From Bacteroidota bacterium (GTDB lineage Bacteria > Bacteroidota > Bacteroidia > Chitinophagales > Saprospiraceae), in assembly GCA_017857395.1 (NCBI GenBank), contig JAFMDF010000011.1, positions 1 to 64,000 of the forward strand: a stretch of 64,000 nucleotides of DNA, in the 5' to 3' direction. Under the pieces are notes generated by a model, which was not told where the DNA came from, did not search any database, and was given only the letters and a program-made list of their open reading frames with translations. The position numbers and the translations under genes were made by a program. The stretch's first letter is position 1. Every line of letters begins with the position of its first letter. This document shows positions 17,701 through 64,000 of this stretch, in pieces.

Positions 17701-18304
17701 AAGGATAAGCATTCGACGGTATTAAGCTTTTTAATTACAACAATATTCTAGTTTGTATGATGAAAAAAAGGTTGAATGATTCGTTTTAACTTTTTAATCA
17801 AAACACCAACTAAATAGTTTTTTAGTATATCAATTTGGTAAGGCTTTTAATTTGGTTAGTGTAAAATGACAATCTTAATAAAACGTTAAGGTATTAGGGA
17901 AATCAAATGTAATAATTTTTTTTGGAGACAAAATAGAAAATATACTTTTTTTTTGCTTTTAACTTTTAAATCAATCGTTTCATGACCTTATTCTGCGTAA
18001 TTCAGAATAATAATTTGAAAGAACATTCTTTTAAACGATAAAAAATAGAATTCCGCTTCCTCAGAATAAATATTTTTTTTCCTAATAAAATGTTAATAAA
18101 CATGATCATTTCATCATTAATAAGAAATCAAAGAACAAAATAGGCAAACATATAACAGGATGGATGGTAGTCACATCAGCTTATGTTAAACTATAAATAA
18201 TGGTGCAAAACAGGGAGAGCATAAATACCTTTCTTTCTAGGTAAAAATTGTATCGGTATTACAATAAAAGTATTTGTAAATAGAACCATGGTTATTCGCT
18301 GAAA

Positions 18305-49944: not shown

Positions 49945-50010
49945 TATCTGTGCCCCTTTATCAATCCGTGGTACAAAATCACTACCACTAATTAATAAAG
50001 TACCACAGAT
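49945..50010. repeat. CCGTGGTAC inverted repeat
   Basis: CCGTGGTAC (49966-49974) faces GTACCACAG (50000-50008), and ATCTGTG (49945-49951) can alternatively pair with CACAGAT (50004-50010). The preceding AATCCGTGG links it to the ATCCGTGGCA words around hemJ. Confidence 0.45.
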
Positions 50011-50055
50011 ATTAGACTTGTAAGATTAATTTCTTCTTCACTTTCAAAAGACTAC

Positions 50056-50748
50056 ATGAAAAAAATAGGCATCATCGGCGGCGTCACTTGGGTCTCTACC
50101 CAAGAATATTATAAACAAATCAATCAAGCTGTCAATCAAAAATTGGGTGGTTTTCATTCTGCTAATATGTTAATTAATTCCGTTGACATGGGAGAGATCT
50201 ATCCTTTTTTACCAATTGGGGATTGGGATGGATTAGCGGATTATATCACCACAAAAGTAGTAGAACTTAAAAAAGCAGGAGGGGAGTTTTTTGCCATTGG
50301 CTCTAATACTATTTCTAAGGTCGGACATCAAGTTTCCAAAAATACAGGTTTACCTTATATCGATATTTATGAAGCTACTGCGGAAGCCATTGCCAAAAAA
50401 CAGCTGCAAAAAGTAGCTTTATTAGGAGTTGCCTTTACTATGAAGGATGATGTTTATGCCAAGGCTTTAGCAAAATTCGGCATAGAAACAGTTATTCCGA
50501 CCGATGCAGAAATGGATAAAACGCATGAAATTATCATGACTGAATTAACCAAAGCTATTTTTACGTCAAAAAGTAAAGCAACTTACCTTGAAGTCATAAA
50601 CAGAATGCAAAAAGAAGCAGCAGTTGAAGGAGCTATTCTAGGTTGTACTGAGATTCCTTTATTAATAAATCAAACAGATACAGATTTACCAGTATTCGAT
50701 ACAACTGCCATCCATGTAAAAGCTATTTTGGAGTATGCTTTTAGCTAA
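50056..50748 (+). CDS. aspartate/glutamate racemase family protein with Ser83/Cys197 active site
   Basis: 230 residues, PLP-independent racemase fold. The opening KKIGIIGGVTWVSTQEYYKQIN is the family signature. The first catalytic position, usually Cys in a CNT motif, is Ser83 here (FFAIGSNTISKVGH). The second, Cys197, is present in GAILGCTEIPLL. From memory, the E. coli homologue YgeA also has a non-Cys residue (Thr83) opposite Cys197 and is an L-specific racemase, so this protein may be one-directional rather than inactive. It lies between DUF2461 and pyrophosphatase genes in the same direction but with large gaps, so it is probably a single-gene unit. Confidence 0.85.
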   Translation: MKKIGIIGGVTWVSTQEYYKQINQAVNQKLGGFHSANMLINSVDMGEIYPFLPIGDWDGLADYITTKVVELKKAGGEFFAIGSNTISKVGHQVSKNTGLPYIDIYEATAEAIAKKQLQKVALLGVAFTMKDDVYAKALAKFGIETVIPTDAEMDKTHEIIMTELTKAIFTSKSKATYLEVINRMQKEAAVEGAILGCTEIPLLINQTDTDLPVFDTTAIHVKAILEYAFS

Positions 50749-50941
50749 AATTCCAAACAATATTTGCAAACCTTTCCTAACAAAACAACGTTTCAAAATA
50801 TAATTCTATAATTAATGGAAATTTAACAGCATCTAAATACAAGTTGCTGTAATTTTGCCCTAATTAATCACCCTTGGACACCGTTCATTTCCGATAAAAT
50901 CGGAACAAACTATGAATCGTGTGCTGTAAACCGTTCAAAAA

Positions 50942-51667
50942 ATGGGACAAGAAGCTTATGATAAGTTGTGGAAGTTAATTGGCTTACGTTATAAATCGCA
51001 TCCTTGGCATGGTATCGAAATAGGTAAAAGAACACCGAGAGTAGTCACCTCCTTCATTGAAGTGATTCCTTCTGATACAGTAAAATATGAAGTTGATAAA
51101 AAGACAGGTTATTTAAAAATTGACCGTCCACAAAAATTTTCTAATATCGTTCCTGCCCTTTATGGCTTTATTCCTCAGACGTATTGTAAAGAGGAAGTTG
51201 CTGCCTACTGTATGGAAAAAACAGGCAAAACAGATATTGTCGGTGATGATGATCCACTAGATATTTGTGTATTAACAGAAAGAGAAGTAACGCATGGAAA
51301 TATCATCGTGAAAGCTAAACCAATTGGCGGTTTTAGAATGCTAGATGGTGGCGAAGCAGATGATAAAATTATTGCTGTTTTAGAGAACGATGAAGTGTAC
51401 GGTAAATGGAATGACGTTTCAGAATTACCCCCTTCAATCATCAATCGTTTGCAACATTATTTTTTGACTTACAAGCAATTGCCTGGAGACAAACCGAAGT
51501 GTGAAATCACGCATACTTATGGTCGAGCGGAAGCACAAGAAGTTATCCGAAGAAGTCAGGTAGATTATAATAAAGCTTACGGAAATTTAGAAGAAGTCAT
51601 GTCAATGACTTTGATGGAAGCTTTTAATTTTGGCCAGCGTCAGCAGGATATTTTGAAGGATTTGTAA
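50942..51667 (+). CDS. ppa: inorganic pyrophosphatase (family I)
   Basis: Hydrolyses pyrophosphate to phosphate, pulling biosynthetic reactions forward. The 241 residues include DRPQKFSNIVPALYGFIPQTYC and the metal-binding DDDPLDICVL (acidic residues at about 102-107). VKAKPIGGFRMLDGGEADDKIIAV follows (partly shown). It is longer than the 176-residue E. coli enzyme, as in other Bacteroidota, with an N-terminal extension (YKSHPWHGIEIG). A small TTCCGAT...ATCGGAA palindrome occurs about 45-60 bp upstream. It ends at the 27-bp perfect hairpin shared with the next, convergent gene. Confidence 0.93.
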   Translation: MGQEAYDKLWKLIGLRYKSHPWHGIEIGKRTPRVVTSFIEVIPSDTVKYEVDKKTGYLKIDRPQKFSNIVPALYGFIPQTYCKEEVAAYCMEKTGKTDIVGDDDPLDICVLTEREVTHGNIIVKAKPIGGFRMLDGGEADDKIIAVLENDEVYGKWNDVSELPPSIINRLQHYFLTYKQLPGDKPKCEITHTYGRAEAQEVIRRSQVDYNKAYGNLEEVMSMTLMEAFNFGQRQQDILKDL

Positions 51668-51677
51668 ATATAATTGT

Positions 51678-51751
51678 ACCGTAGCTTGGGCATTCTTGCC
51701 CGAGTGTATTACACACATGATGTGCTCGGGCAAGAATGCCCAAGCTACGGT
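51678..51751. terminator. 27-bp perfect hairpin between ppa and a convergent gene
   Basis: The arms 51678-51704 (ACCGTAGCTTGGGCATTC...) and 51725-51751 (...GAATGCCCAAGCTACGGT) are exact complements around a 20-nt loop. The right arm touches the stop codon of the minus-strand gene at 51751. Too long and too GC-rich at the ends for an ordinary terminator; related to the hairpin at 8464-8547. Confidence 0.7.
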
Positions 51752-52140
51752 TATAGGCTAAAAACCTCCACTTGACTAGTCAATCGCTGCACCAACAAAT
51801 TAGTCGTCCGCTTAGTCAACTCTCTTTCATCTGCAATAAAACGTGCCCATTCTTCTAGGGTAAAATGTCCTGTAATCACGCCAACCAACAAGTTTTTGAA
51901 TTTCAAATCTTTCCGAATACTATTCTCGATATATTCCACTCTTTTGGGTTGACCCAATTTATGAAAAACCCCTTTTCTTTTAATAATATAATTCTTAAAA
52001 ATAGCATCTAATAAATCATTTTGCAATTTTAGAATCGGTCGCAAAGTCCTATTTTGGAATAATTCGGCAGGGTTGACTGCGTTTTTGTCGATGATGGTAG
52101 GGATAGGTGGACGAAGCGTTATTAGTTGAGTATCTCTCAT
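51751..52140 (-). CDS. conserved hypothetical protein (MRDTQLITLRPPIPT type)
   Basis: 129 residues, no signal peptide or membrane helix. The opening MRDTQLITLRPPIPT and the following FQNRTLRPILKLQNDLLDAIF recall a small protein family of Bacteroidota that I know only as uncharacterised. The C-terminal part is helical and charged (FTLEEWARFIADERELTKRTTNLLVQRL). It is followed by the 27-bp hairpin and preceded by a paired word array. The neighbouring minus-strand genes at 52317 and 52851 are also small soluble proteins. No function can be assigned. Confidence 0.7.
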   Translation of the reverse strand: MRDTQLITLRPPIPTIIDKNAVNPAELFQNRTLRPILKLQNDLLDAIFKNYIIKRKGVFHKLGQPKRVEYIENSIRKDLKFKNLLVGVITGHFTLEEWARFIADERELTKRTTNLLVQRLTSQVEVFSL

Positions 52141-52161
52141 TTTAGGAATTTTTAGTTATGT

Positions 52162-52312
52162 GTTGCGGGTTACGGGTTGCGAGTTGCAGGTTGCGGGTTA
52201 AAAACTGCACAGGTTTATTATTTGAATACTACTTAAAATTGGTTATTTTACTCCAATATTAAGCAAAATCACTACAATCAACTCGCAACTCGTAACCCGC
52301 AACTCGCACCCC
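52162..52312. repeat. paired GTTGCGGGTT word array (1)
   Basis: The left array 52162-52200 is tandem GTTGCGGGTTACGGGTTGCG-type decamers (last letters vary: GCGAGTT, GCAGGTT). The right array 52279-52312 is the complementary set (CAACTCGTAACCCGCAAC). The best 18-nt core pairs with one mismatch across an about 78-nt spacer. It fills the gap between two minus-strand genes. The same words recur at 52710-52849 and once near 25808. Confidence 0.7.
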
Positions 52313-52316
52313 GTTT

Positions 52317-52700
52317 TCAACAAACATCAGGCTTTTTAGTTGCCAATTCCGTAAAGGTATCTGATTTATCTTCGTCTTCTCTGTCGATACAAGGGAAATC
52401 TTTTTCGATTAGAATGTGCAAATTCTCACCATTCTCTAATGGGTAATTAACTTCTATGCCCACTTGATTAGAATTAATCCATTGCTGGGCTTGGACTAAT
52501 GGAATATGCACCGCTAATAAATTATCGACCAATTCCGCATTCACCTCATCCCTCATTGCGTCAACGCCTAAAGCAAAAGCAAACATTGTTGTTCCTCCCA
52601 AAGAAACCGTTTCTGTAAGAATGCCTTCGCTGTCTAATTTTTGCAATTCCGATTTTTTAATTCTAATTCGGATGCTGTTGTGGACACATCTTAGTTTCAT
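52317..52700 (-). CDS. conserved hypothetical protein (DUF7009-like)
   Basis: 127 residues, soluble. The start MKLRCVHNSIRIRIKKSELQKL, followed by a beta-rich stretch (TVSLGGTTMFAFALGV, VHIPLVQAQQWINSNQVGIEV) and a late cysteine pair (FPCIDRE...DVC), resembles small uncharacterised proteins annotated as DUF7009; the match is from memory. The gene is bracketed on both sides by paired GTTGCGGGTT word arrays. The strongest context signal is therefore repeat-borne rather than functional. No function can be assigned. Confidence 0.7.
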   Translation of the reverse strand: MKLRCVHNSIRIRIKKSELQKLDSEGILTETVSLGGTTMFAFALGVDAMRDEVNAELVDNLLAVHIPLVQAQQWINSNQVGIEVNYPLENGENLHILIEKDFPCIDREDEDKSDTFTELATKKPDVC

Positions 52701-52709
52701 GTTATTTCA

Positions 52710-52849
52710 GTTGCGGGTTGCGAGTTACGGGTTGCGGGTTGGATAAAGTAACTTGGTTTAATACTTGAATTAAAAACTAAAGCTTTAGATTCTTATTCAA
52801 ATAGTCAAAACAAACACTATACAACTCGCAACACGTAACTCGCAACTCG
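52710..52849. repeat. paired GTTGCGGGTT word array (2)
   Basis: The left array 52710-52740 (GTTGCGGGTTGCGAGTTACG...) and right array 52822-52849 (CGCAACACGTAACTCGCAAC) pair over 23 nt with two mismatches, around an AT-rich spacer of about 80 nt. The right array ends one base before the stop codon of the SnoaL-like gene. Confidence 0.7.
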
Positions 52850-52850
52850 A

Positions 52851-53255
52851 TCATTTTTTAAAATTTTCCAACATTTCCATCATTTGCTGATGCAATTTTT
52901 GCATGCCTTGCAGCGGTCGTACCATCACTTTAAATTCTGTAATTTGGTTATTATCATTATAGGTGACAATATCGACTCCATTAATTGTAACACCATCAAT
53001 TACCGTCGTGAATTCTAGCATAATTTGCTGGTTGCTCGTAATTTCTTTGGTGTAAACAAAGTCTCCTGCACCCAATACTTTTTCGGCAGCCATGAGATAA
53101 ATCTTTGTGATTTTTTTCCCTCGCTGTGGCGTATGTACTACTGGCGAATGAAAAACAACCTCTTCAGCAAGTAGTTCATCTAATATGGTAAAATCATGCT
53201 TATCCATGTATTCATACCAACGATTTAAAACGTACGGTTTTTCGCTTATCATCAC
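52851..53255 (-). CDS. SnoaL/NTF2-like fold protein
   Basis: 134 residues, soluble. The pattern fits the small cone-shaped NTF2-like domain: a first helix with RWYEYMDKHDFTILDELLAEEVVFHSPVV, then strands FVYTKEITSNQQIMLEFTTVIDGVTINGVDIVTYNDNNQITEFKVMVRP (partly shown). Such proteins are small isomerases, hydrolases or binding proteins; the pocket residues here do not reveal which. It directly follows an SDR gene on the same strand with a 25 bp gap, so the two are probably co-transcribed and may share a pathway. A second Met at residue 2 is an equivalent start. Confidence 0.75.
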   Translation of the reverse strand: MMISEKPYVLNRWYEYMDKHDFTILDELLAEEVVFHSPVVHTPQRGKKITKIYLMAAEKVLGAGDFVYTKEITSNQQIMLEFTTVIDGVTINGVDIVTYNDNNQITEFKVMVRPLQGMQKLHQQMMEMLENFKK

Positions 53256-53280
53256 TTTTTAATTTTACATTTTCAACTAA

Positions 53281-53982
53281 TCAAAGGTCACCTAATTGTG
53301 GTCGCATCACAATTTCTTCTATGGTCGAACTAGCACTCATATTATACGCACTCCAAATCGTATTGGCTACATCTTCGGGTGGCATAATTCGTCCTGCTGG
53401 CAATTCTACGCCTGCCCAAGCATTCGTCAAAGTAGCACCAGGAATAACGGAAGTTACTTTGATATGTTTATCCATTAATTCATGTCGCAAGACTTTAGAA
53501 AATCCCAATAGCGCAAATTTAGAAATCACGTAGCTACTACAATTAGGATAGGCTTTCTGGCTTGCTACACTACAGATATTAAAGATATGTCCTTTTTTCT
53601 GATTTATTAAAGTAGGTAATAATTTTCTCGTCAAATAATAAGACCCATATACATTGGTTGCCATCATGTTTTCCAAAAAACCATCTGGTTCTTCTAATAA
53701 ACTACCTTGCAAAAAAGTAGCCGCATTATTCACCAAAACATCTACGCCTCCCCATTTATCCAATATTTTTTTAGCAAAGTTTTCTACTTGCTTTTTAGAT
53801 TGCATGTCCACTTTTTCTGCTAGTATTTCATTTAAAGAATTAATGGTTAATAATTCTTTTTTAGTCGCTTTTAAATCCGCAGTCGTCCGAGCACAAATCG
53901 CTATATCAAAATCTTCGTTGGCAAATTTTTCAGCAATCGCTTTGCCAATTCCTTTGGTACCTCCCGTAATTACTATAAGCAT
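53281..53982 (-). CDS. short-chain dehydrogenase/reductase
   Basis: 233 residues, classical SDR. The cofactor motif TGGTKGIG is at residues 6-13, NNAA at 85-88, catalytic Ser138 in FNICSVAS, Tyr151 and Lys155 in YVISKFALLGFSK. Cys-Ala-Arg (ICART) after the second strand suggests NADP(H) preference. The C-terminal half ends with VIPGATLTNAWAG and a variable substrate loop. It is the first gene of a two-gene unit with the SnoaL-like protein. The substrate is unknown. Confidence 0.9.
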   Translation of the reverse strand: MLIVITGGTKGIGKAIAEKFANEDFDIAICARTTADLKATKKELLTINSLNEILAEKVDMQSKKQVENFAKKILDKWGGVDVLVNNAATFLQGSLLEEPDGFLENMMATNVYGSYYLTRKLLPTLINQKKGHIFNICSVASQKAYPNCSSYVISKFALLGFSKVLRHELMDKHIKVTSVIPGATLTNAWAGVELPAGRIMPPEDVANTIWSAYNMSASSTIEEIVMRPQLGDL

Positions 53983-54146
53983 AGAATAATGGTTAAACTA
54001 AAAAGTACAAAGAACGTTCTTTTCTAGATAAAAGGAGACTCAAATGATTATTCTTATATTTGCGCTTTTGTAAATTTTCAGCGCAGTATACGCTCAAATT
54101 CGTATGCGCTAGGCTCTATTTAATTCATATAACCAATTCAATTTTC

Positions 54147-55190
54147 ATGAAGTATACAACACTCGGAGATACCGATTTAAAAGTTAGTAAAATATGTCTT
54201 GGCACCATGACTTGGGGTGAACAAAACACCGAAGCAGAAGGCCATGAGCAAATGGACTATGCGCTTGACCAAGGCGTTAATTTTTGGGATACGGCAGAAA
54301 TGTATTCTATTCCAGGGCGAGCAGAAACTTATGGCGCTACGGAAAAAATTATCGGAACTTGGTTTAAGAAAACAGGTAAAAGAGACCAAGTTATTTTAGC
54401 CACTAAAATTGTAGGTCCTTCTCCAGGTATTACTTGGGTAAGAGATGGAAAAATAGATTTTAGTAAGGCGTCTATTTTTGCTGCAGTGGAAACTAGTTTG
54501 CAACGATTACAAACAGATTATATTGATTTATACCAACTGCATTGGCCAGAACGTCGAACCAATTATTTTGGTAAAAAAGAGTTTAAATATTCTGCAAGCG
54601 ACCCTTGGCAAGACAATATGCAGGAAGTTTTAGAAACCATGCAGGAATTGGTTAAGCAAGGAAAAATTCGCCATTTTGGGATTTCTAATGAAACGCCTTG
54701 GGGTTTTTCTCGCTATTTAAATTTAGCAGATAAGCATAATTTACCAAAAGTACAGACCGTACAAAATCCATACAGTTTATTGAATAGAACGTATGAAATT
54801 GGAATGTCAGAAATTTCTATTCGAGAAAAAGCAGGTTTAATTGCTTATTCTCCAATGGGTTTTGGGATGTTGTCTGGTAAGTTCCACAAGGGTACAGATA
54901 AACCAACGGATAGAATTAATAAATGGAAAGTTTATAATCGATATAGTAGTGAGTTATCTAAAAAAGCAACAGGAAAGTATTTAGAAATTGCGGAGGCACA
55001 TGGTATGACTTTAGCAGAAATGTCTTTGGCTTTTGTTAGCACTCGTCCTTTTGTAACGGCTAATATTATTGGCGCTACTTCTATGGTTCAATTGAAGGAA
55101 AATATCGGTAGTATTAAATTTGATATTTCTAAAGAATTAATGAAAGAAATTAATGCGGTACATCAGGAAATTTCTAATCCTGCGCCGTAA
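54147..55190 (+). CDS. aldo/keto reductase (Tas-like)
   Basis: 347 residues, NADPH-dependent carbonyl reductase with a TIM-barrel fold. The start at 54147 (MKYTTLGDTDLKVSKICLGTM) is the normal family opening; the ATG at 54060 would add 29 residues without family character. The catalytic tetrad is complete: D48 and Y53 in FWDTAEMYS, K87 in ILATKIVG, H132 in LYQLHWPERRTNYFG. The last motif and the length are close to E. coli Tas. The gene converges on xdhC across a palindrome doublet. The natural substrate is unknown. Confidence 0.9.
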   Translation: MKYTTLGDTDLKVSKICLGTMTWGEQNTEAEGHEQMDYALDQGVNFWDTAEMYSIPGRAETYGATEKIIGTWFKKTGKRDQVILATKIVGPSPGITWVRDGKIDFSKASIFAAVETSLQRLQTDYIDLYQLHWPERRTNYFGKKEFKYSASDPWQDNMQEVLETMQELVKQGKIRHFGISNETPWGFSRYLNLADKHNLPKVQTVQNPYSLLNRTYEIGMSEISIREKAGLIAYSPMGFGMLSGKFHKGTDKPTDRINKWKVYNRYSSELSKKATGKYLEIAEAHGMTLAEMSLAFVSTRPFVTANIIGATSMVQLKENIGSIKFDISKELMKEINAVHQEISNPAP

Positions 55191-55192
55191 TT

Positions 55193-55266
55193 TTACTGGA
55201 TAACTTCCCGTTATCCAGTAAATTGATAAGCAAAAAATTACTGGATAACGGGAAGTTATCCAGTAA
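55193..55266. repeat. TTACTGGATAAC palindrome doublet (REPIN-like), convergent junction
   Basis: The left unit 55193-55221 reads TTACTGGATAAC-N5-GTTATCCAGTAA and is itself a palindrome. The right unit 55238-55266 is its exact reverse complement, so the whole forms a 29-bp perfect inverted repeat with a 16-nt loop as well as two local hairpins. It lies between the aldo/keto reductase and XdhC genes. A second doublet of the same family is at 58327-58410. Confidence 0.8.
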
Positions 55267-55274
55267 TTATGCTT

Positions 55275-56309
55275 CTATTTAAACGCATTCTGCACCATAA
55301 TAATCTCCCCCATAATACTCAAAGCAATTTCTTTTGGCGTTTTTGCCTTAATAGAAATACCGACTGGCGAATGAATTTTGGCAATCTCTTCGGCAGAAAA
55401 TCCTGCCGCTTCCAATCTAGCTACTCTTTTTGCTTGCGTTTTTCTACTCCCTAAAGCACCAATATAGCCCACTTCAGATTTTAATAAAATATGCAAAGCA
55501 TTATCATCAATTTTAGGGTCATGTGATAAAACGACCGCATACGTATAGGCATCTAAAATATAATCTGGTAATACCTCTGCTGGATATTTTTCGTAAATAC
55601 TATCTGGCGCTGTTGCAAATTGGGTTTTATTGGTAAAAATGCCTCTTGGGTCAATGACGACCGTTTCAAAACCATACATTTTACCTAGTGTTACTAAGTC
55701 AACGGTGATATGTGCGGCACCAATAATTAGTAATTGACTTCGACGAGGAAAGACTTGGGCAAAATATTGAACGCCCTCATTCTCTACAATTTGACTCTTT
55801 CGCTCTTTATAGACTCTAATACCTTCTGCTATTAGAAACGCAGGCAATTGTTGCCCCAAAGCAGAACGGTCAGGCATAATCAATAAATGCTGACTTTCTC
55901 CTGCTTGTAAGCGAGTCAATAAGACACAAGGTTCATTATTATTTAGATTAGCTTGTAATCTTTGCCAAACAGCTTGTTCCGCTGGTCGTTTATCAAAAGC
56001 TAAAAATTTTTCGGCATATATTTGAATTTTACCACCACAACTTAATCCTACGCCCCAAGCTTCTTCATCGGTTACCCCAAAATCTAATTGTGCGCCTTCC
56101 CCTTTGGCAATTAGTGGAAGTGCTGCTTTAATGACTGCCCCTTCTACACATCCACCACTAACAGAACCTGCCATTTCCATATCTTCAGAGACCAATAAGG
56201 CAGAACCAACTGGGCGAGGAGAAGATCCCCAAGTTTTTATCACCGTAGCAACTGCAAAAGGCTTATCTTCGGTCGTCCAATCATTGATTGTCGCTAATAA
56301 TTCTTTCAT
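55275..56309 (-). CDS. XdhC/CoxI family molybdoenzyme maturation protein
   Basis: 344 residues. The N-terminal XdhC_CoxI domain shows AVATVIKTWGSSPRPVGSALLV and GSVSGGCVEGAVI, including the conserved GGCVE cysteine. The C-terminal Rossmann half has QLLIIGAAHITVDLVTLGKMYGFETVVIDPR (partly shown) and VGYIGALGSRKTQAKR. Members bind sulfurated molybdenum cofactor and hand it to xanthine dehydrogenase-type enzymes. No molybdoenzyme subunit is in the window, so the client is elsewhere. The MoaD-like gene starts divergently 82 bp away, which fits a molybdopterin context. Confidence 0.9.
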   Translation of the reverse strand: MKELLATINDWTTEDKPFAVATVIKTWGSSPRPVGSALLVSEDMEMAGSVSGGCVEGAVIKAALPLIAKGEGAQLDFGVTDEEAWGVGLSCGGKIQIYAEKFLAFDKRPAEQAVWQRLQANLNNNEPCVLLTRLQAGESQHLLIMPDRSALGQQLPAFLIAEGIRVYKERKSQIVENEGVQYFAQVFPRRSQLLIIGAAHITVDLVTLGKMYGFETVVIDPRGIFTNKTQFATAPDSIYEKYPAEVLPDYILDAYTYAVVLSHDPKIDDNALHILLKSEVGYIGALGSRKTQAKRVARLEAAGFSAEEIAKIHSPVGISIKAKTPKEIALSIMGEIIMVQNAFK

Positions 56310-56391
56310 TAGAGTAATTTTTTAAAAATTATACTATTTTTAAGCAAAAATAGGTGATTGATTGTTTAATTGTTAAAATGTACGATTTTTT

Positions 56392-56664
56392 ATGGCTAAA
56401 ATTAAATTCACCGCAGCATTAAAAAGATTTTTTCCAAATTTGGAAGAATTAGAAATTGATGGCAATACGGTAGCAGAAGTTATCCAAGCAACAGAAGTCA
56501 AATACCCTGGTATTAGTGGTTATTTATTAGATGAAAGAGGTGCTGTTCGACAACACATGAATATTTTTGTGCGAGGAGAATTGATTGAAGATAGGGAGAC
56601 CTTACAAGATGCCTTGGCAGAGCATGATGAAATTGTTATTTTTCAGGCTTTGTCAGGAGGATAA
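56392..56664 (+). CDS. MoaD/ThiS-family ubiquitin-like protein
   Basis: 90 residues with a beta-grasp pattern (IKFTAALKRFFPNLEELEIDG, VAEVIQATEVKYPGI, NIFVRGELIEDRETLQDALAEHDEIVIFQALSGG; each partly shown) and the C-terminal Gly-Gly that is adenylated or thiocarboxylated in this family. No MoaE, ThiG or E1-like gene is adjacent. Upstream, divergently, is XdhC; downstream in the same direction is a BNR propeller. It could supply sulfur for molybdopterin or act as a SAMP-like modifier or sulfur carrier. The choice cannot be made from sequence alone. Confidence 0.85.
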   Translation: MAKIKFTAALKRFFPNLEELEIDGNTVAEVIQATEVKYPGISGYLLDERGAVRQHMNIFVRGELIEDRETLQDALAEHDEIVIFQALSGG

Positions 56665-56702
56665 TTTTCAATTCTCAATTTTCAAAATTCGTCATGCCTG
56701 AC

Positions 56703-56728
56703 CTCCAAGCGTCTTTAAGACCTTGGAG
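56703..56728. repeat. short hairpin between the MoaD-like and propeller genes
   Basis: CTCCAAG-C-GTC pairs with GAC-CTTGGAG around a TTTAA loop, with one bulged base. It lies 38 bp after the MoaD-like stop. It may attenuate read-through into the propeller gene. Confidence 0.4.
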
Positions 56729-56787
56729 CGTCTAAAAGAACAACTTATCATTTCCTCATTACTTATTTCCATACCTTTTCTTCTTCT

Positions 56788-57882
56788 ATGCCACAAAAAC
56801 TACTCGTTGGAACAACCAAAGGATTGGTTGTTTTTGAAAAAATGAATCAGCAATGGCAGGTTCAACAGACGCATTTCCTCGGAATGCCTGTTTCTATTAT
56901 TTATGTCAACGAATTAACCAACACTTGGTGGGCAGGAATTACGCATCATCATTGGGGGCAAAAATTACATTATTCGACGGATGAAGGGCAAACTTGGCTA
57001 TCTGTGCCCCCTCCTTCTTATCCATTAGCTGCACAAATGGCCTCTGGCAAACCAGCTACTTTAAAAAAAATATGGAGCATTCAACATGGCGGCAAAGATT
57101 ATCCAAATCGACTTTGGGTAGGCACAGAACCAGGAGGTTTATTTGTGAGTGAAGACAATGGGCAACATTTTGAATTAGTCAATGCCCTTTGGAATCATCC
57201 AAGTCGAATGAATCAATTAGAATGGTTTGGAACGGGACGAAGCGAGCCTTTCATTCATTCTATCGTGGTCAATCCAACTAATAATAATCAAGTATATATT
57301 GCCGTTAGTTGTGCAGGTATTTTCGAGACAACAGATAGTGGGAAGCATTGGCAACCTAGGAATAAAGGACTAATTGCCGCTTATTTACCTAATCCAAATG
57401 CAGAAATTGGGCATGATCCGCACCGACTTTTTGCTTGCGCTACGAATCCAGATGTATTATGGCAGCAAAATCATTGTGGTATTTTCAGAAGTATAGATGG
57501 TGCGAAAACATGGAAAGACATTAGTGATAAAAATGGGATCGCCAATTATGGATTTGCGTTAGCTATTGACCATCAAGATGATAAAAAAGCATGGGTGGTT
57601 CCTGCGGTTAGTGATGAGTTGAGAATAGCACCCAATCAAGCATTAAGTGTTTGTCGAACCGTAGATGGTGGGCAAACTTGGCAAACGTTAAATAATGGAT
57701 TACCACAAGAAAATTGTTTTGATATTGTTTTTAGGCATGCTTTAGCTATTCATAAAAATACATTAGCTTTTGGCACAACTACAGGTAATTTATATTTATC
57801 AGAAAATAATGGGGACGAATGGATTTGTTTAAGTCATCATTTAGCAAGAATTGATTATGTAAGTTTTACGCAACCGATTTAA
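56788..57882 (+). CDS. BNR/Asp-box beta-propeller protein
   Basis: 364 residues without signal peptide, so probably cytoplasmic, which is unusual for sialidase-like propellers. Six Asp-box motifs are visible: STDEGQTW, SEDNGQHF, TTDSGKHW, SIDGAKTW, TVDGGQTW and SENNGDEW. The opening PQKLLVGTTKGLVVFE and HHHWGQKLHYS identify a family I know as WD40/YVTN/BNR-like proteins of unknown role. The conserved internal His- and Trp-rich segments (LWNHPSRMNQLEWFGTG, IGHDPHRLFACAT) hint at a catalytic or metal pocket. It follows the MoaD-like gene by 123 bp, a pairing I believe recurs in other bacteria. Confidence 0.75.
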   Translation: MPQKLLVGTTKGLVVFEKMNQQWQVQQTHFLGMPVSIIYVNELTNTWWAGITHHHWGQKLHYSTDEGQTWLSVPPPSYPLAAQMASGKPATLKKIWSIQHGGKDYPNRLWVGTEPGGLFVSEDNGQHFELVNALWNHPSRMNQLEWFGTGRSEPFIHSIVVNPTNNNQVYIAVSCAGIFETTDSGKHWQPRNKGLIAAYLPNPNAEIGHDPHRLFACATNPDVLWQQNHCGIFRSIDGAKTWKDISDKNGIANYGFALAIDHQDDKKAWVVPAVSDELRIAPNQALSVCRTVDGGQTWQTLNNGLPQENCFDIVFRHALAIHKNTLAFGTTTGNLYLSENNGDEWICLSHHLARIDYVSFTQPI

Positions 57883-57925
57883 CTACGCCCACACATGTTT
57901 ATGGCGCTAGTAAAAAACTATAACT

Positions 57926-58321
57926 ATGAGAAAAACAACCACTTTATATCTACCCAAAAACGGCAAAGAAAAATGGACAAAAATCATGGAAGGTGGCACA
58001 ACTCATTATGCGGATGATGTCTTAGAGGGACAACCTATCGTCATGGCAACCGCCACTTTTGATGATGGATTTTGGGTAGCAGGAGGTGTTTACAAATCTG
58101 AAACACCCGAGGAATATAATATTAAATTTATGAATGTTTATACACCAGACGGCATTCAAATACCTTTTTTAATTGACCCTTCCGATCATGAGGATTTTAG
58201 AGATGAAAATTTTACTTTTTACCTAAATGACGAAGAAGTGGGCGATGAATATGTGGTAAAAATAAAGGAAAGAAAAGCCGAATGGGTATTTGGTGGAGTT
58301 TGGTTAGCTGAAAATTCTTAG
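57926..58321 (+). CDS. small soluble protein of unknown function
   Basis: 131 residues, no signal or membrane segment, predicted mostly beta strands with many acidic residues (DDVLEGQPIVMATATFDDGFWVAGG, LIDPSDHEDFRDENFTFYLNDEEVGDEY; each partly shown). I do not recognise a family. It begins 43 bp after the propeller gene in the same direction, so the two, perhaps with the MoaD-like gene, could form one operon. It ends six bases before a TTACTGGATAAC-type palindrome doublet. Confidence 0.65.
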   Translation: MRKTTTLYLPKNGKEKWTKIMEGGTTHYADDVLEGQPIVMATATFDDGFWVAGGVYKSETPEEYNIKFMNVYTPDGIQIPFLIDPSDHEDFRDENFTFYLNDEEVGDEYVVKIKERKAEWVFGGVWLAENS

Positions 58322-58326
58322 TTATT

Positions 58327-58410
58327 ATTACTGAATGGCTTTCCGCCATCCAGTAATTTCAACTTCGGTGAATATCTTGAATTTACTGGATAACTTCCGT
58401 TATCCAGTAA
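58327..58410. repeat. TTACTGGATAAC palindrome doublet (second), convergent junction
   Basis: The right unit 58383-58410 is TTACTGGATAAC-TTCC-GTTATCCAGTAA, 12-bp perfect arms. The left unit 58327-58357 is a diverged copy, ATTACTGAATGGC-N5-GCCATCCAGTAAT. The core ATGGC/GCCAT replaces ATAAC/GTTAT in both arms, so the stem is kept by compensatory change, with one A-C mismatch. It fills the gap before accC. Confidence 0.75.
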
Positions 58411-58412
58411 TA

Positions 58413-59756
58413 CTAATCATCCGTTAAATCAAAGTCTTTCAAAAAGCCCGTATGAAAATTACCTGCTTTAAAGTTTTCATCTTTCATCAAGCGTTGATGA
58501 AAAGGTACGGTCGTTTTTACACCCTCTACGATAAATTCATCCAAAGCCCTTGACATTTTCTTAATACATTCTTCTCGAGTCTGAGCTTTACATATCAATT
58601 TAGCAATCATTGAATCATAATATGGTGGAATCGAATAGCCTGCATATACGTGTGTATCTACTCGTACACCATGCCCTTTAGAACTATGGAAAGAAGTAAT
58701 TTTTCCTGGGCTTGGTCGGAAATTATTAAATGGATCTTCTGCATTAATTCGACATTCTATCGCATGCATAGTCGGGTAATAATTCTCGCCCTTCAGTTTT
58801 TCTCCAGCAGCTACTTTAATTTGCTCTTTAATTAAATCATGGTCAATTACCTCTTCCGTTACAGGGTGTTCTACTTGAATACGAGTATTCATTTCCATGA
58901 AATAATAATTGCGGTATTTATCTACTAGAAATTCAACCGTTCCTACGCCTTCATAATTGATGAATTTAGCAGCTTTAACTGCAGATTCTCCCATTTTTTC
59001 TCTTAATTCTGGAGTCATAAAAGGAGATGGACATTCTTCGACTAATTTTTGATGCCGTCTTTGAATGGAACAATCTCTCTCTGAAAGATGCGCTACATTT
59101 CCGTGTTGATCACCAATAATTTGGAATTCTATATGTCGAGGTTCTTCGATAAATTTCTCCAGATACATGCCTGCATTACCAAAAGAAGATTGCGCTTCAT
59201 TTGTAGCCATATTCCATGCGCCTTCAAACTCTTCTGGTTTCCATACTTCTCGCATCCCTTTTCCACCTCCACCAGCAGTTGCTTTTAAGATAACAGGATA
59301 ACCTACTTCTTCTGCTAACTTCAAACCATGTTCGATGTCTTTTAACAAACCGCCTGAACCCGGTACAACAGGCACACCTGCTTTAATCATGGTCTCTTTC
59401 GCTGTAATCTTATCTCCCATTTTCCGAATCATGGCAGGAGCTGGGCCAATAAATTTAATACCATATTCTGAACAAACTTCGGCAAAATCAGCATTTTCTG
59501 ATAAGAATCCATAGCCAGGATGTATAGCATCCGCATTGGTTATTTCTACCGCAGCCATAATTTTAGACACACTTAAATAAGAATCTTTAGAAGCTGGAGG
59601 TCCAATACAAACGGCCTCGTCCGCAAATCGTACATGCAAACTTTCTCGATCAGCCGTAGAATAAACAGCTACGGTCTTTATCCCCATTTCTTTACAAGTT
59701 CGAATAATACGAAGGGCGATTTCTCCTCTATTAGCAATGAGAATTTTTTTGAACAT
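58413..59756 (-). CDS. accC: acetyl-CoA carboxylase, biotin carboxylase subunit
   Basis: ATP-dependent carboxylation of the biotin carried on AccB, the first step of fatty-acid synthesis. The 447 residues have the normal length. The N-terminal [24 protein letters not shown], the ATP-grasp glycine loop ([13 protein letters not shown]), [17 protein letters not shown] and the catalytic-site region [18 protein letters not shown] are all present. It follows accB on the same strand with a 99 bp gap, the standard accBC arrangement, here preceded by efp. Its 3' end faces the palindrome doublet. Confidence 0.97.
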
Positions 59757-59855
59757 AAATTTTGTTTTGTTTAAAGTTCTCTATTAATTAATGCCATATT
59801 ACCATGATGACGTATCAATATGCTCATCATTAAGCATTCATTTCACCCCTAATAA

Positions 59856-60362
59856 TTAGCCATTAGGGTCAACTAAAAACAAAGGTTGATCATATTCTAC
59901 AGGAGAGGAATCTTCTAGTAAGACTTTCACTACCTTTCCACTTATTTCAGATTCAATTTCATTGAATAATTTCATAGCTTCTACAATACAGACAACGCTT
60001 CCTACCTCAATCGTGTCTCCTACTTTAATATAAGCTGGTTTTTCTGGAGAAGAAGAACGATAGAAAGTACCAACAATTGGAGATTTTACCTCAACGTAAT
60101 TATTAGTCTCCGCTGGCACTGTTGCAGCAGGAGTAACAACTGCAGGAGTTTCCGCCGCAGGAGCAGGTGGTGCGGAAGGGGCATAAGCAGGCGACATAGC
60201 TGCTGGCACAGAAATTACTTGCTGTGTAGCAGGGGCTGCTTTCATTTTATGATATTCGTCGGTACGAATAGTCATTTCAAATTCACCATCTTTCAATTTA
60301 AATTCAGAAAGATTAGTTTTATTAATCAATTTAATAAGGTCTTGTATTTCTTTAAAATTCAT
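59856..60362 (-). CDS. accB: biotin carboxyl carrier protein of acetyl-CoA carboxylase
   Basis: 168 residues. The N-terminal region (MNFKEIQDLIKLINKTNLSEF) is the family's start. A proline/alanine-rich linker follows (residues about 42-85). The biotinyl domain has PIVGTFYRSSSPEKPAYIKVGD and VEAMKLFNEIE, with biotinylated K131. It forms an operon with accC downstream. The gap to efp upstream is 166 bp and holds TATGTTTG on the minus strand at 60493-60500, which fits the -7 consensus but lacks a -33 partner. Confidence 0.96.
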   Translation of the reverse strand: MNFKEIQDLIKLINKTNLSEFKLKDGEFEMTIRTDEYHKMKAAPATQQVISVPAAMSPAYAPSAPPAPAAETPAVVTPAATVPAETNNYVEVKSPIVGTFYRSSSPEKPAYIKVGDTIEVGSVVCIVEAMKLFNEIESEISGKVVKVLLEDSSPVEYDQPLFLVDPNG

Positions 60363-60528
60363 TTTTTGTATTATTGGTGTATATAACGGGTGTTGGTGTC
60401 TAAATCAAAAAAAGTGCAATATAAGAATTGAGGTCGGATAATTATAAAAAAATTAATCCTTTAATTAATTATACAATTGTCTTGTTGGACAACAAACATA
60501 GCATTTTAGCACACCTTATCGAAATAAA

Positions 60529-61095
60529 TTAGGATTTGACTCGCTCTATATAGGAGCCTGTTTTAGTATCCACTTTTATCATATCTCCTTCATTGATAAA
60601 AAGTGGCACTCTTACCTCCGCCCCTGTTTCAGTGGTTGCAGGCTTAGTAGCATTCGTAGCAGTATTCCCTTGAACACCCGGTTCTGTATAAGTAATTTTC
60701 AAATTAATGTATTGGGGCAAATCAATGGTTAAAGGCGTTTCTCTAGCAGCATCAAATAAGATTTCAATTTCAGCTCCTTCTTTGATAAATTTAGGTTGAT
60801 CAATCATTTTTTCTTCTAACGCCACTTGTTCATAAGTTTCATTATCCATAAAATGAAAAGCATAATCATCTTTATACAAGTATTGAAACTTTCGACGCTC
60901 CACCCTTACTACTGAAATTTTATGTCCAGCAGGAAAAGTATGATCCACTACTTTTCCAGTGGCAAAACTCTTCAATTTAGTTCGTACAAAAGCATTACCT
61001 TTTCCAGGTTTAACATGTTGGAAAGAAACAATAGAATACACATCTTTATTAAAATCAATGCATAAGCCATTTTTAATATCCGAAGTATTTGCCAT
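60529..61095 (-). CDS. efp: translation elongation factor P
   Basis: Binds between the P and E sites to rescue ribosomes stalled on polyproline. 188 residues in three beta domains. The tip loop reads HVKPGKGNAFVR with Lys32 at the position modified in other EF-Ps. The VERRKFQYLYKDDYAFHFMDNETYEQ segment (partly shown) and the C-terminal GDMIKVDTKTGSYIERVKS are typical. The gene order efp-accB-accC is common in bacteria. No modification enzymes for the lysine are nearby. Confidence 0.96.
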   Translation of the reverse strand: MANTSDIKNGLCIDFNKDVYSIVSFQHVKPGKGNAFVRTKLKSFATGKVVDHTFPAGHKISVVRVERRKFQYLYKDDYAFHFMDNETYEQVALEEKMIDQPKFIKEGAEIEILFDAARETPLTIDLPQYINLKITYTEPGVQGNTATNATKPATTETGAEVRVPLFINEGDMIKVDTKTGSYIERVKS

Positions 61096-61305
61096 AATAT
61101 ACAGGTCAATTTTAAAAATAAGTAATTCATCCCAAAATATGGGAGATTAAATTTCATCTATTATCTATCAGATAAAGATGTGCTAAAGAAGAATGAGTTG
61201 TCAAAAAAAATCTAACAAACTGACAATCAAATAGTTACAATTCAGTATAAAAATCTAAAAATCAATATTTAGCTATGCCTTGTGCCAAATCAGTTTGCAA
61301 AGATA

Positions 61306-61809
61306 TTAAAATCCATACAAAACACCAGCAGTAATAGTCGATTGGTCAATTCCGCCAATAGTTACTTTAAACTCACCAAAATAACTTAGACTAGTTAAAG
61401 TCTCAATTTGTGTGCCCAAACCTAGGTTTAGTCCGACCGATATACCATCTTCTCTTGCTCTAATGCCAGTAGTCGACCCATCAATTTTAACATTAAAAAT
61501 ATTAATTCCAGCCACAGGATAAACATTAATCTCATCTCCAATAGCAATTAATTGATATCTACCATCTAGGTCAATGGAAAAATAACTAAAAGAAACATCA
61601 TTTAAGGCTTTGTCTTTAAAAAAGAAATTAACCCCTGGTGCTGCTAGAAATTTGTCATTAATTTCGTAAGTACCTCGTAGGTTTAGCCCTAATTTGGAAA
61701 TACCTGTACCAAAGGTCAATCCCCCACCCAATTGTATCTGTGCATTGGTAGTAGATAAACAAAAGAAGGTGCAGCATGATAAACAAAAATAAAGTAGTAA
61801 TTGCTTCAT
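61306..61809 (-). CDS. small outer membrane beta-barrel protein
   Basis: 167 residues with a signal peptide (MKQLLLYFCLSCCTFFCLSTTNAQ). Alternating hydrophobic strands (IQLGGGLTFGTGISKLGLNLRGTYEI, FFFKDKALNDVSFSYFSIDLDGRYQLI, TVGVLYGF-type end: ITAGVLYGF) fit an eight-stranded OmpA/OmpW-like barrel. The C-terminal Phe is the usual barrel end. No ligand or partner is evident. It is a single gene, 210 bp downstream of efp's start region on the same strand. Confidence 0.75.
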   Translation of the reverse strand: MKQLLLYFCLSCCTFFCLSTTNAQIQLGGGLTFGTGISKLGLNLRGTYEINDKFLAAPGVNFFFKDKALNDVSFSYFSIDLDGRYQLIAIGDEINVYPVAGINIFNVKIDGSTTGIRAREDGISVGLNLGLGTQIETLTSLSYFGEFKVTIGGIDQSTITAGVLYGF

Positions 61810-62193
61810 ATCGTTTAGTAATTTATTTTAATTCTTTGGCAATTTTGCATTTTATTGAATGGTTGACTTACCTCAACCTATACCTATCTAGAAATCAATA
61901 TCTTTCGTTGATGGAAGTCAACAATACAGTTTGATTTGACAAAATTGTCAAAGAATCTTTATTCATAAAAATGCAATTTACATATTTTTTAAAAAATGTA
62001 AGGAAATTTACAGTTTATTAAGCATCGAATTTGCTAATCCAAACGTAATATATAGAAAGCGGCATAATAAGGTCGCTCAAAGTACGTTTCTAAAGGCAAT
62101 TGTCTTGATTATCAAACATATAGTATTTTTTTCATTTGACTATATCTTGTTAAAACCGTATCTTTGGACAATAAAATTGATTGCACAAAACTC
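61810..62193. other. intergenic region upstream of the orphan gene
   Basis: About 384 bp without a gene. A perfect palindrome TTGACAAAATTGTCAA lies at 61937-61952 and could be an operator. Nothing else was recognised. Confidence 0.45.
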
Positions 62194-62859
62194 ATGTTAA
62201 AACAGAACTATTTACAGCTTATAAAAGAGCTGACAACAACACTTGATTCTTTCGATTACACTTTGCTTACACCAGGCATTACTAGCCAATTTTTGCCTGT
62301 CATTAAACTAGCTATTCGTTCTAAAGAAAGAGAAATTTTCCAGCAGCAACTAGCCGAAAAATTAGATTTTCAAGTTATCCAAAGTAAGTTAGATACCACC
62401 ATTCTTACAGCTAATTTAGCCGAAGATGAATTCATTACAATAGAATTATATCACTTCTTCCATGAAGACCGTTTGACTTATTTGGATATAGAAGAAGTAT
62501 TAGCCAATAGAAAACAGTCTGAAAAAGGCTTGTTCATTCCTAAATTAGAACATCTTTTGGAATTCAGTGTTTTGAATAGTTTCTTTCATGAGGAAGGTCT
62601 AAGCGATCATATTATCAAACGCTTTGAGGATTTGCATATCTTTTTGCAGGAAGGCTTATTGGATTATTTTAATACGAAATACGATACTTATTTTAATAGT
62701 CTTTATGACTTATCAGATTATAAGGAAATGATAGATAATCACTTCCACAAACAGTTAAAACAGTTTCCAGTCAATAAGTTTTCTAATCGAGTAAAATTAG
62801 GTTGGGTCAATATGAAGCTTTTATTAAAGCGTTCTGCTGTTTTTTCTTATTTCTTTTAA
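62194..62859 (+). CDS. orphan protein, possibly nucleotidyltransferase-like
   Basis: 221 residues from the ATG at 62194 (MLKQNYLQLIKEL); an in-frame TTG at 62164 would add ten. No signal or membrane segment. It is rich in helix-forming, acidic and aromatic residues (LAEDEFITIELYHFFHEDRLTYLDIEEVL). The LVFE-free pattern of an internal strand ending in FITIELYHFF, then a later KLEHLLEFSVLNSFFHEEG, faintly recalls the N-terminal domain of thymidylate kinase-like polysaccharide proteins, here without the kinase half. That link is weak. I cannot assign a function. The gene converges on the cytochrome peroxidase across a hairpin. Confidence 0.6.
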   Translation: MLKQNYLQLIKELTTTLDSFDYTLLTPGITSQFLPVIKLAIRSKEREIFQQQLAEKLDFQVIQSKLDTTILTANLAEDEFITIELYHFFHEDRLTYLDIEEVLANRKQSEKGLFIPKLEHLLEFSVLNSFFHEEGLSDHIIKRFEDLHIFLQEGLLDYFNTKYDTYFNSLYDLSDYKEMIDNHFHKQLKQFPVNKFSNRVKLGWVNMKLLLKRSAVFSYFF

Positions 62860-62863
62860 AAAT

Positions 62864-62925
62864 CAGTTATCAGTTGTCGGTTATCCGTTCTAAGTTTTAC
62901 CCGACAACTGACAACCGACGACTGT
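62864..62925. terminator. word-repeat hairpin at a convergent junction
   Basis: The left arm CAGTTATCAGTTGTCGG... and right arm ...CCGACAACTGACAACCGAC pair imperfectly over about 24 nt. Both are built of GTTGTC/GTTATC words. It fills the gap between the orphan gene and the peroxidase gene. Confidence 0.55.
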
Positions 62926-62927
62926 TC

Positions 62928-64000
62928 TTACCTAATATTCCCACCTACTGGTAATCCGCTTGGCACACTTGCAGGAATCTGCTGATCAAAACTTTCATCA
63001 TTTAAAGCTTGTAAAAAAGCAGCAATTGCTTGTACGTCATTATTATTCAAACGCAAATTACGAGCATCTTGGTCAATTTGATTTCTAGGTACATTGGGAT
63101 TAATATTTAAATTACCAGGACCGCCACCGCCATTTCCTTGAATTCTTCTATAAAAATTAAGGACGTCTGTTAAATCTCCAGCCACCCCATTATGAAAATA
63201 AGGCCCTGTTGTATTCAAATTCCTTAAACTCGGTGTTCTAAATTCATATCTATTATTGGCACCAACGTCCGAAAAACCCAGTAATGGATTATCTGGTACG
63301 CCCAAAGTGTGCAAATCATAATCTGAAAACATCGACCCACTATGGCAATCCGTACAACCTACCGCATCAAATCTATTTAAACCTTGAATTTGTTGGGGAT
63401 TTAAAGCATTTTCATCTCCTCTTGCATAACGGTCAAAAGGGCTATTATTGGCAACTATGCTTCTTTCAAAAGCAGCAATTGCTTGACCGATATTAATCGA
63501 ATTGACTGCATTATTACCACCAAAAATCTGTTGAAACTGATTCCTATAAGCAGCAATTGCATTGATTCTAGCAACAATGACTTCCAACGTCTCGTCTTCA
63601 TCAAAAGCATGCCCTCGCATTTCTTCAAAAGAATGTAATGGTAATAAAGCTTGTTCTTCTAAACCATTCGCTCGATTATCCCAAAACATAGGCGCTTGGT
63701 TGGGGTTCACATTTCCTTGCTCATCAATCCCATTAAAAGCCGTATTAACAATAGTTGGAGAATTTCTTTGCACTAACCCAATGTCATCATTTACGCCATC
63801 TCGTCTCGCAGGGCCTAAACCTATCCCACCTACACCAATCGGTAATGCTCGCCCATCTGCATACCCAAAATCTGGGTGATGGCAAGTAGCGCAAGACACA
63901 TCCTGCTCTCCTGAAAGTACTGGGTCCCAAAATAATAAACGACCTAATTCTACTTTTGCAGCCGTCAACGCATTATCAGCGGGTGAAACGACATTCAAAG
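62928..64000 (-). CDS. di-haem cytochrome c peroxidase (MauG/CcpA family), 5' end outside window
   Basis: The reading frame is open to the right edge, so the N-terminus, probably with a signal peptide, is missing; 357 codons are visible. Two CxxCH haem c sites are present: CATCH in DVSCATCHHPDFGYADG and CTDCH in GCTDCHSGSMFSDYDLH. The sequence GRLLFWDPVLSG before the first and TPSLRNLNTTGPYFHNG after the second are characteristic. The enzyme reduces hydrogen peroxide in the periplasm or, in MauG-like members, oxidises a protein or other substrate. The two roles cannot be separated here. Confidence 0.9.
   Translation of the reverse strand, partial: LNVVSPADNALTAAKVELGRLLFWDPVLSGEQDVSCATCHHPDFGYADGRALPIGVGGIGLGPARRDGVNDDIGLVQRNSPTIVNTAFNGIDEQGNVNPNQAPMFWDNRANGLEEQALLPLHSFEEMRGHAFDEDETLEVIVARINAIAAYRNQFQQIFGGNNAVNSINIGQAIAAFERSIVANNSPFDRYARGDENALNPQQIQGLNRFDAVGCTDCHSGSMFSDYDLHTLGVPDNPLLGFSDVGANNRYEFRTPSLRNLNTTGPYFHNGVAGDLTDVLNFYRRIQGNGGGGPGNLNINPNVPRNQIDQDARNLRLNNNDVQAIAAFLQALNDESFDQQIPASVPSGLPVGGNIR

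Follow-up and report, generated by a model that had tools for sequence, protein, structure and literature searches.

The palindromes at two gene junctions in a 64,000-nucleotide stretch of Saprospiraceae DNA (NCBI GenBank assembly GCA_017857395.1, contig JAFMDF010000011.1, positions 1 to 64,000 of the forward strand; hereafter the window) are probably repetitive extragenic palindromic (REP)-type hairpins of a variant REPIN/RAYT system, RAYT standing for REP-associated tyrosine transposase, and we put the probability of this reading at about 0.72. Three features expected of such a system were encountered: the copies are dispersed and mostly intergenic, they form inverted doublets, and a RAYT gene, on contig C84 of the same genome, lies beside members of the family. 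A preliminary description of the window had placed four palindromic units in 55193-58410, three sharing the palindrome TTACTGGATAAC-N-GTTATCCAGTAA (55193-55221, 55238-55266 and 58383-58410) and a fourth with ATGGC/GCCAT in both arms, and all four were found where it had located them. These units, their spacers and the adjoining open reading frames (ORFs) are as follows:

55193..55221, + strand: family hairpin, first unit of the junction 1 doublet; stem TTACTGGATAAC/GTTATCCAGTAA, loop TTCCC; model score 54.6 bits; -11.3 kcal/mol as DNA
55222..55237: AT-rich doublet spacer at junction 1, 16 bp
55238..55266, - strand: family hairpin, second unit of the junction 1 doublet, loop orientation opposite; loop GGGAA; 54.6 bits; -12.1 kcal/mol
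58328..58356, + strand: family hairpin at junction 2, inner stem ATGGC/GCCAT; TTACTGAATGGC-TTTCC-GCCATCCAGTAA, one A.C mismatch; 48.1 bits; -8.4 kcal/mol
58357..58382: junction 2 spacer, 26 bp
58383..58410, + strand: family hairpin at junction 2, 4-base loop TTCC; 41.1 bits; loop reversed relative to the matching unit in congener G006
54060..55190, + strand: ORF, 376 aa, stop 2 nt ahead of the first hairpin
55275..56309, - strand: ORF, 344 aa, convergent partner at junction 1
57926..58321, + strand: ORF, 131 aa, stop 6 nt ahead of the third hairpin
58413..59756, - strand: ORF, 447 aa, convergent partner at junction 2

It was verified that both junctions are formed by convergent genes, with the hairpins 2-8 nt from the stop codons, and that the two units of the 55.2-kb pair are inverted when judged by their loops. 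However, the inversion that had been described for the 58.3-kb pair did not hold by loop orientation, both loops (TTTCC and TTCC) being read on the + strand; the second unit of this pair looks flipped in the own genome, the loop at this place in G006 being GGAA. The ATGGC/GCCAT change of the 58328 unit is compensated as described, but one A.C mismatch leaves its stem with 11 of 12 pairs. When folded as single-stranded DNA, the four units reached -8.4 to -12.1 kcal/mol and the doublet at 55185-55274, which is able to fold into a single long hairpin, reached -31.6 kcal/mol, and for each of these five sequences none of 200 shuffles was as stable. The half word alone, with up to two mismatches, occurs 14 times in the window against 7.1 expected, which is weaker evidence than the gapped palindrome, and an Rfam scan of 54000-60000 returned nothing at the gathering score.

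Further copies were sought in the genome to which the window belongs (G000, 10.15 Mb) and in eight congeners (G001-G008, all drafts, with a completeness of 55-94%). The exact gapped palindrome was found in nine copies in the own genome, whereas the same pattern read backwards gave none. A first covariance model, built from 16 copies, retrieved weaker matches that have the common loop and outer bases and a different stem word, and these were borne out by a pattern with free stem letters, which matched 15 times on each strand, versus 1 and 4 times in the control. In the own genome, a second model (R2, alignment A4), built from 52 units, yielded at least 104 matches at E<=1, 150 of 5162 candidates having been scored. 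Within 63 loci (570 kb), mostly picked for holding matches, 131 model matches were reduced to 103 distinct units in 65 clusters once partial matches, repeats on the second strand, copies counted twice where loci overlap and one match of 22.7 bits had been removed. About a hundred family units are dispersed in the own genome. With ORFs called by a simple script, 12 clusters were assigned to convergent, 34 to co-directional and 6 to divergent gene pairs, while 5 lay within ORFs and 8 at contig edges. At E<=0.01 the family was detected in all nine genomes of the genus, with 6 to 92 matches each, and in none of 31 genomes from other genera; G004 and G005 hold 16 and 15 matches to the hairpin model. 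The exact core word gave no match in viral contigs, and the junction 1 doublet matched no plasmid. A looser pattern, TTACTGN10-20CAGTAA, was rejected as a family search, its 24 matches against 12 in the control indicating that about half of them arise by chance.

The common unit can be written as (C)TA-TTA-variable-AAC-TTCCC-GTT-variable-TAA-TTTTA, with a CTTCCCG loop and a stem of 12-13 bp. Directly beside the stem, TA precedes it in 56 and TTT follows it in 65 of the 92 units with full flanks, 11 of the 103 having been left out as too short (four-base loops or contig ends). Stem words vary within the family (TCCAGT in 33 units, CTGGAT in 14, TCAAGT in 13, and others) as well as between species, with TTTGTCCAGCAACTTCCCGTTGCTGGACAAA in G008, G004 and G003, TTATCCAGTGACTTTCCGTCACTGGATAA in G001, and the window's word in G007 and others. 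Over 12 stem pairs, 55 of the 103 units have no mismatch and 30 have one. In the alignment of 52 own units, 12 of 13 pairs were changed on both sides, and 142 double-changed cells were counted, compared with 48.2 (sd 6.1) for shuffles, while 5 cells were wobble and 33 were unpaired; in 64 congener units, the count was 204 against 64.0 (sd 5.4), with 5 cells changed on one side (wobble) and 30 unpaired. The 64 rows of the congener alignment (A6) were chosen by leaving out second-strand repeats, near-identical copies and other lengths, one row (L356) having its loop reversed, and in both alignments the units had been retrieved by a pattern or model in which pairing is presupposed, which favours the percentage paired. 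A wider alignment (A3), with units in mixed orientation, was discarded. Double changes exceed half-changed cells about four- to sixfold, and loops can be reversed. Covariation in the genus is strong, although the conclusion of the preliminary description that it shows selection on structure stands only in part: structural selection is likely, but matched changes would also arise if one arm were copied from the other. Such copying, which would make matched arm changes outnumber half-changed stems and would produce reversed loops, is a possible cause of both observations.

Regarding doublet order, neighbouring units within 400 bp of each other were arranged as '+-' in 25 cases, '-+' in 2, '++' in 5 and '--' in 6, five of the latter in one array, and the '+-' pairs have spacers of 15-205 bp. 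A single detected unit was present in 35 of the 65 clusters. Several pairs in G008 are '-+', so that the doublet order is not universal. On contig C226 of the own genome (3884-4153, locus L064), six family units stand in tandem at exactly 45 bp, with one unit of opposite orientation before them.

A link to an enzyme was provided by C84:17257-17925, which encodes a 222-aa RAYT with family units at 17149 and 17214 on one side and at 17935 and 18057 on the other, and which was recognised by reading the ORF between these units. Among 430 ORFs in the 63 loci (a few counted twice, in the overlapping loci L085 and L210), only this RAYT and a 103-aa ORF inside the C226 array were flanked on each side by a unit no more than 150 bp away; the chance of such bracketing, for ten genes of this kind, is about 1e-5. 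The protein carries the motifs NHFH and YIHNNP, and N53-H54-F55-H56 and Y176 are invariant in 12 relatives. Its predicted structure (12 sequences; pLDDT 85, pTM 0.84) was closest to 4ER8, a complex of a RAYT with a REP hairpin (Foldseek E 3.2e-6; Z 14.6 over 136 residues, rmsd 2.4), the next entry scoring Z 9.4 and Thg1 and viral Rep entries lying lower, at Z about 6-7. In this predicted structure, a HUH motif and a catalytic tyrosine are set in a TnpA-Y1 fold. The genome search recommended in the preliminary description therefore returned both things it named, further copies of the word and a RAYT with two family units on each side, and the REPIN/RAYT layout it had recognised is supported by about a hundred further copies and by inverted doublets that are mostly in one order. 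Its fallback, in which no further copies and no RAYT would leave two independent terminators, is the opposite of what was found. The C84 RAYT was missed by the Pfam Y1_Tnp scan, Pfam gave no relevant match to it, and a PDB sequence search returned nothing at E<=1. The Y1_Tnp profile itself matched 7 times in the own genome and 25 times in eight of the nine genus genomes, and these genes were rejected as the cognate enzyme, no family unit being found near them (mostly within 1.5 kb on each side or to the contig end) except for a doublet on C385 located 4.8 kb from one.

Relatives of the C84 RAYT with at least 40% identity occupy eleven loci of the genus, C84 included, and strong family units are absent at the ten others, C155 having two weak matches of 22 and 20 bits. 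The flanks of nine of these ten were inspected, and eight had at least one script-found hairpin within 300 bp, C504 of G001 having none; taken alone, such hairpins constitute weak evidence, because hairpins are common between genes. Other RAYT-like genes, with the motifs NHLH and YIHLNP, were observed at L014-L016, L224, L226, L230, L233 and L237, several with other hairpins beside them, often with an ATCGA-like foot. On contig C34 of the own genome (19176-19376, L074), the spacer of a family doublet holds hairpins of another type, GTCTGGAGAC and GTCTCCTGAC, which match the DNA on either side of a different RAYT, one of G005 (L226).

Comparison of matching places across congeners showed units present in one species and absent in another. 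The two genes that flank junction 1 could both be matched in G005, G007 and G002, where other inverted repeats (identified by eye) and no family units occur; the left gene only was matched in G001, G008, G003 and G004, where it is followed by other inverted repeats, tandem repeats in the case of G004. In G008 and G003 (L252 and L260), these are long inverted repeats built from words resembling AACCACATAGGTACATAG, and contig C325 of G003 holds a repeat to which they are related. At junction 2, with both genes matched in G006, G005, G002 and G007, family hairpins are present in G006 and G005 and other hairpins in G002 and G007. Additionally, G005 has a unit at the place matching 53271/53272 of the window, where the window has none, the flanks being too diverged for exact ends. 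Family units were kept in both species compared at three further junctions: at C448, one stem pair differs from G005 in matched fashion and another hairpin has decayed in the own genome; at C272, one loop is reversed in the own genome relative to G002 and G006; and at C467, units occur in both species. Within genes, an in-frame family doublet is present on C385, in an ORF of 2307 aa that has ketoacyl-synthase and FabA domains, and the ortholog in G007 has the doublet with a matched TGAC/GTCA to TAAC/GTTA change and a different spacer. In this linker (L172, L173 and L174 for G000, G002 and G007), G002 has an unrelated palindrome and G001 has none.

When 13 such site sequences were compared with the RAYT loci, two matched DNA beside a RAYT and eight had no match at all, 13 shuffled queries giving none. 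One of the two, the junction 1 inverted repeat of G002, is similar to the DNA on either side of the RAYT on C441 of that species (84% over 89 bp). The synthase-gene palindrome of G002 matches hairpins before the RAYT on C281 of G007 (91% over 35 bp) and beside the RAYT on C441 of G002 (83% over 35 bp). For junction 1 of G008 and of G003, the match was to a repeat that lies some 1.3 kb away from a RAYT-like ORF, and junction 2 of G002 has a 27-bp match elsewhere.

Two units in opposite orientation and a short AT-rich spacer make up a doublet of roughly 80-100 bp. According to the proposed mechanism, the C84 RAYT would recognise the hairpin as single-stranded DNA, cut beside it, and copy or move the doublet, as suggested by published work on RAYT enzymes. 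Enzyme and hairpin may drift together, which would give rise to species-specific words, and a doublet that has settled beside a gene could take on a secondary role as its 3'-end hairpin. Several observations weigh against this interpretation. No movement of the doublets was observed, and the congener comparisons gave no clean empty site or target duplication. Most units lack a canonical GTAG foot, GTAG occurring within 14 nt upstream in 6 of the 92 units on the CTTCCCG strand and in 3 on the other, GGAG in 5 and 2, respectively, and a CGTC foot in none on either strand. The NCBIfam model REP_Tyr_transpos (NF047646) scored the C84 RAYT at 28.1 bits (E 1.6e-6), below its cut-off of 80. No RAYT bracketed by the CTTCCCG family was found in the eight draft congeners; G004 gave no relative of the enzyme and G005 only a partial one of 33%, and 23 of 40 genomes have relatives at E<=0.001, some of them in genera that lack the hairpins. 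Finally, in one congener, G002, the place of the window's first junction is taken by a different hairpin family, which also lies beside a RAYT of that species.

The hairpins could instead be primarily transcription terminators or mRNA 3'-end structures, their shared sequence being that of a useful terminator that was copied rather than of a mobile family. Like intrinsic terminators of convergent genes, they lie near stop codons, 2-8 nt away at both window junctions, and are often followed by TTT (65 of 92 units); in co-directional clusters the unit is nearer the 3' end of the upstream gene in 27 of 34 cases, and congeners carry other hairpins at the places of the window junctions. Moreover, in a 395-kb sample of the own genome (L388-L407; large contigs, the stretches fetched for family units being skipped, so that none is included by choice), strong hairpins were detected in 30 of 40 convergent, 49 of 143 co-directional and 5 of 37 divergent gaps, against 0, 0 and 1 in shuffles that keep base counts only, one per region. 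However, a dispersed family with a fixed loop and a doublet order that is independent of gene order differs from intrinsic terminators, and the clusters are not concentrated at convergent junctions (12 convergent, 34 co-directional and 6 divergent, versus 40, 143 and 37 in the sample). Furthermore, 5 of the 65 clusters lie in ORFs, one doublet being in frame inside the 2307-aa ORF, and a terminator scan of 50000-64000 remained at background (10 found versus 9.5 expected), with one of the four window units passing. On the CTTCCCG strand G-T cells number 13 and A-C cells 30, and the counts are reversed on the opposite strand, where they would fit selection on RNA, the excess being small and the copies not independent. 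Considering these data together, a primary terminator role appears improbable. As for two independent look-alike terminators, their position at gene ends is all that speaks for them, and the nine exact copies against none for the reversed control, in a family spread over the genus, make this account almost certainly wrong.

It is also unlikely, in our judgement, that the family is a palindromic element with no dedicated enzyme, or moved by another one, as in CGTC repeats and Rickettsia palindromic elements, with the C84 units present by chance or through a tendency of RAYT genes to attract hairpins. Strong family units at only one of the eleven loci with a RAYT relative of at least 40% identity, the absence of the foot motif of known RAYT hairpins, and the other-type hairpins inside the C34 doublet, which indicate that hairpins collect near hairpins, are in line with it; against it stands the chance of about 1e-5 for the bracketing, together with the fact that the sole bracketed gene besides the array ORF is a RAYT. 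A rather doubtful elaboration of the REPIN/RAYT reading is that several RAYT lineages each drive their own doublets, the families replacing one another at the same docking places and the palindromes being kept near-exact by arm copying during transposition or repair. On this view, junction 1 and the in-frame linker of a fatty-acid synthase gene would hold, from one species to another, hairpins of separate families, each belonging to its own RAYT.

The interpretation as a variant REPIN/RAYT system can be compared with published systems. The proposed cutting of the single-stranded hairpin and its copying by the RAYT are modelled on experiments with enzymes of E. coli, Stenotrophomonas and Marinomonas (PMC8266576). 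The REPINs of Pseudomonas fluorescens SBW25 (PMC3116915) likewise consist of inverted hairpin doublets with short spacers and compensatory changes, with a RAYT beside the family; unlike them, the Saprospiraceae family has no GTAG-type foot, has 12-13 bp stems around one fixed loop and is present in far fewer copies, and no excision was seen. The NHFH and YIHNNP motifs of the C84 RAYT fit the NH[IFV]H and YIxNNP tabulated for TnpA-Y1 (RAYT) subclass 2.4, which corresponds to RAYT group 4 (PMC6006769), a likeness on two motifs. This subclass is abundant in Bacteroidetes, and in-frame REP insertions in genes have been reported (PMC6006769); its REPs have a 5' GT[AG]G foot, whereas the CTTCCCG-family units do not. 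CGTC-tagged REPs, including Rickettsia RPE-4 and RPE-6 and reported also from Bacteroidetes (PMC3733652), are short palindromes too, mostly dimers and sometimes in genes, but the present family differs from them by the lack of a CGTC foot in 92 units, by stems of 12-13 rather than 8-9 bp, and by a RAYT beside the family in one genome. No paper naming the window's word or Saprospiraceae REPINs was found in a literature search that mostly did not cover subscription journals, in agreement with the earlier remark that no described family with this word was known.

These findings would add to the Saprospiraceae a REPIN/RAYT-type system that lacks the usual GTAG foot and whose enzyme escapes the Pfam Y1 profile, and such systems may therefore be under-counted. 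Because stem words vary around a constant loop, the nine related genomes offer a natural series for studying what features of its hairpin a RAYT reads and how both arms change in concert. Mobile hairpins may also provide genes with 3'-end structures, as is suggested by the exchange of different families at one gene end.

As minor observations, some hairpins of the 395-kb sample have A/T flanks and others are words that recur in more than one location, CTGTCAGAAGTCAGA among them. In the window itself, a different dispersed near-palindrome, CTCCAAG...CTTGGAG, lies between two ORFs at 56694-56740, and this stretch has counterparts at many places of the own genome and at some of G005 and G006.

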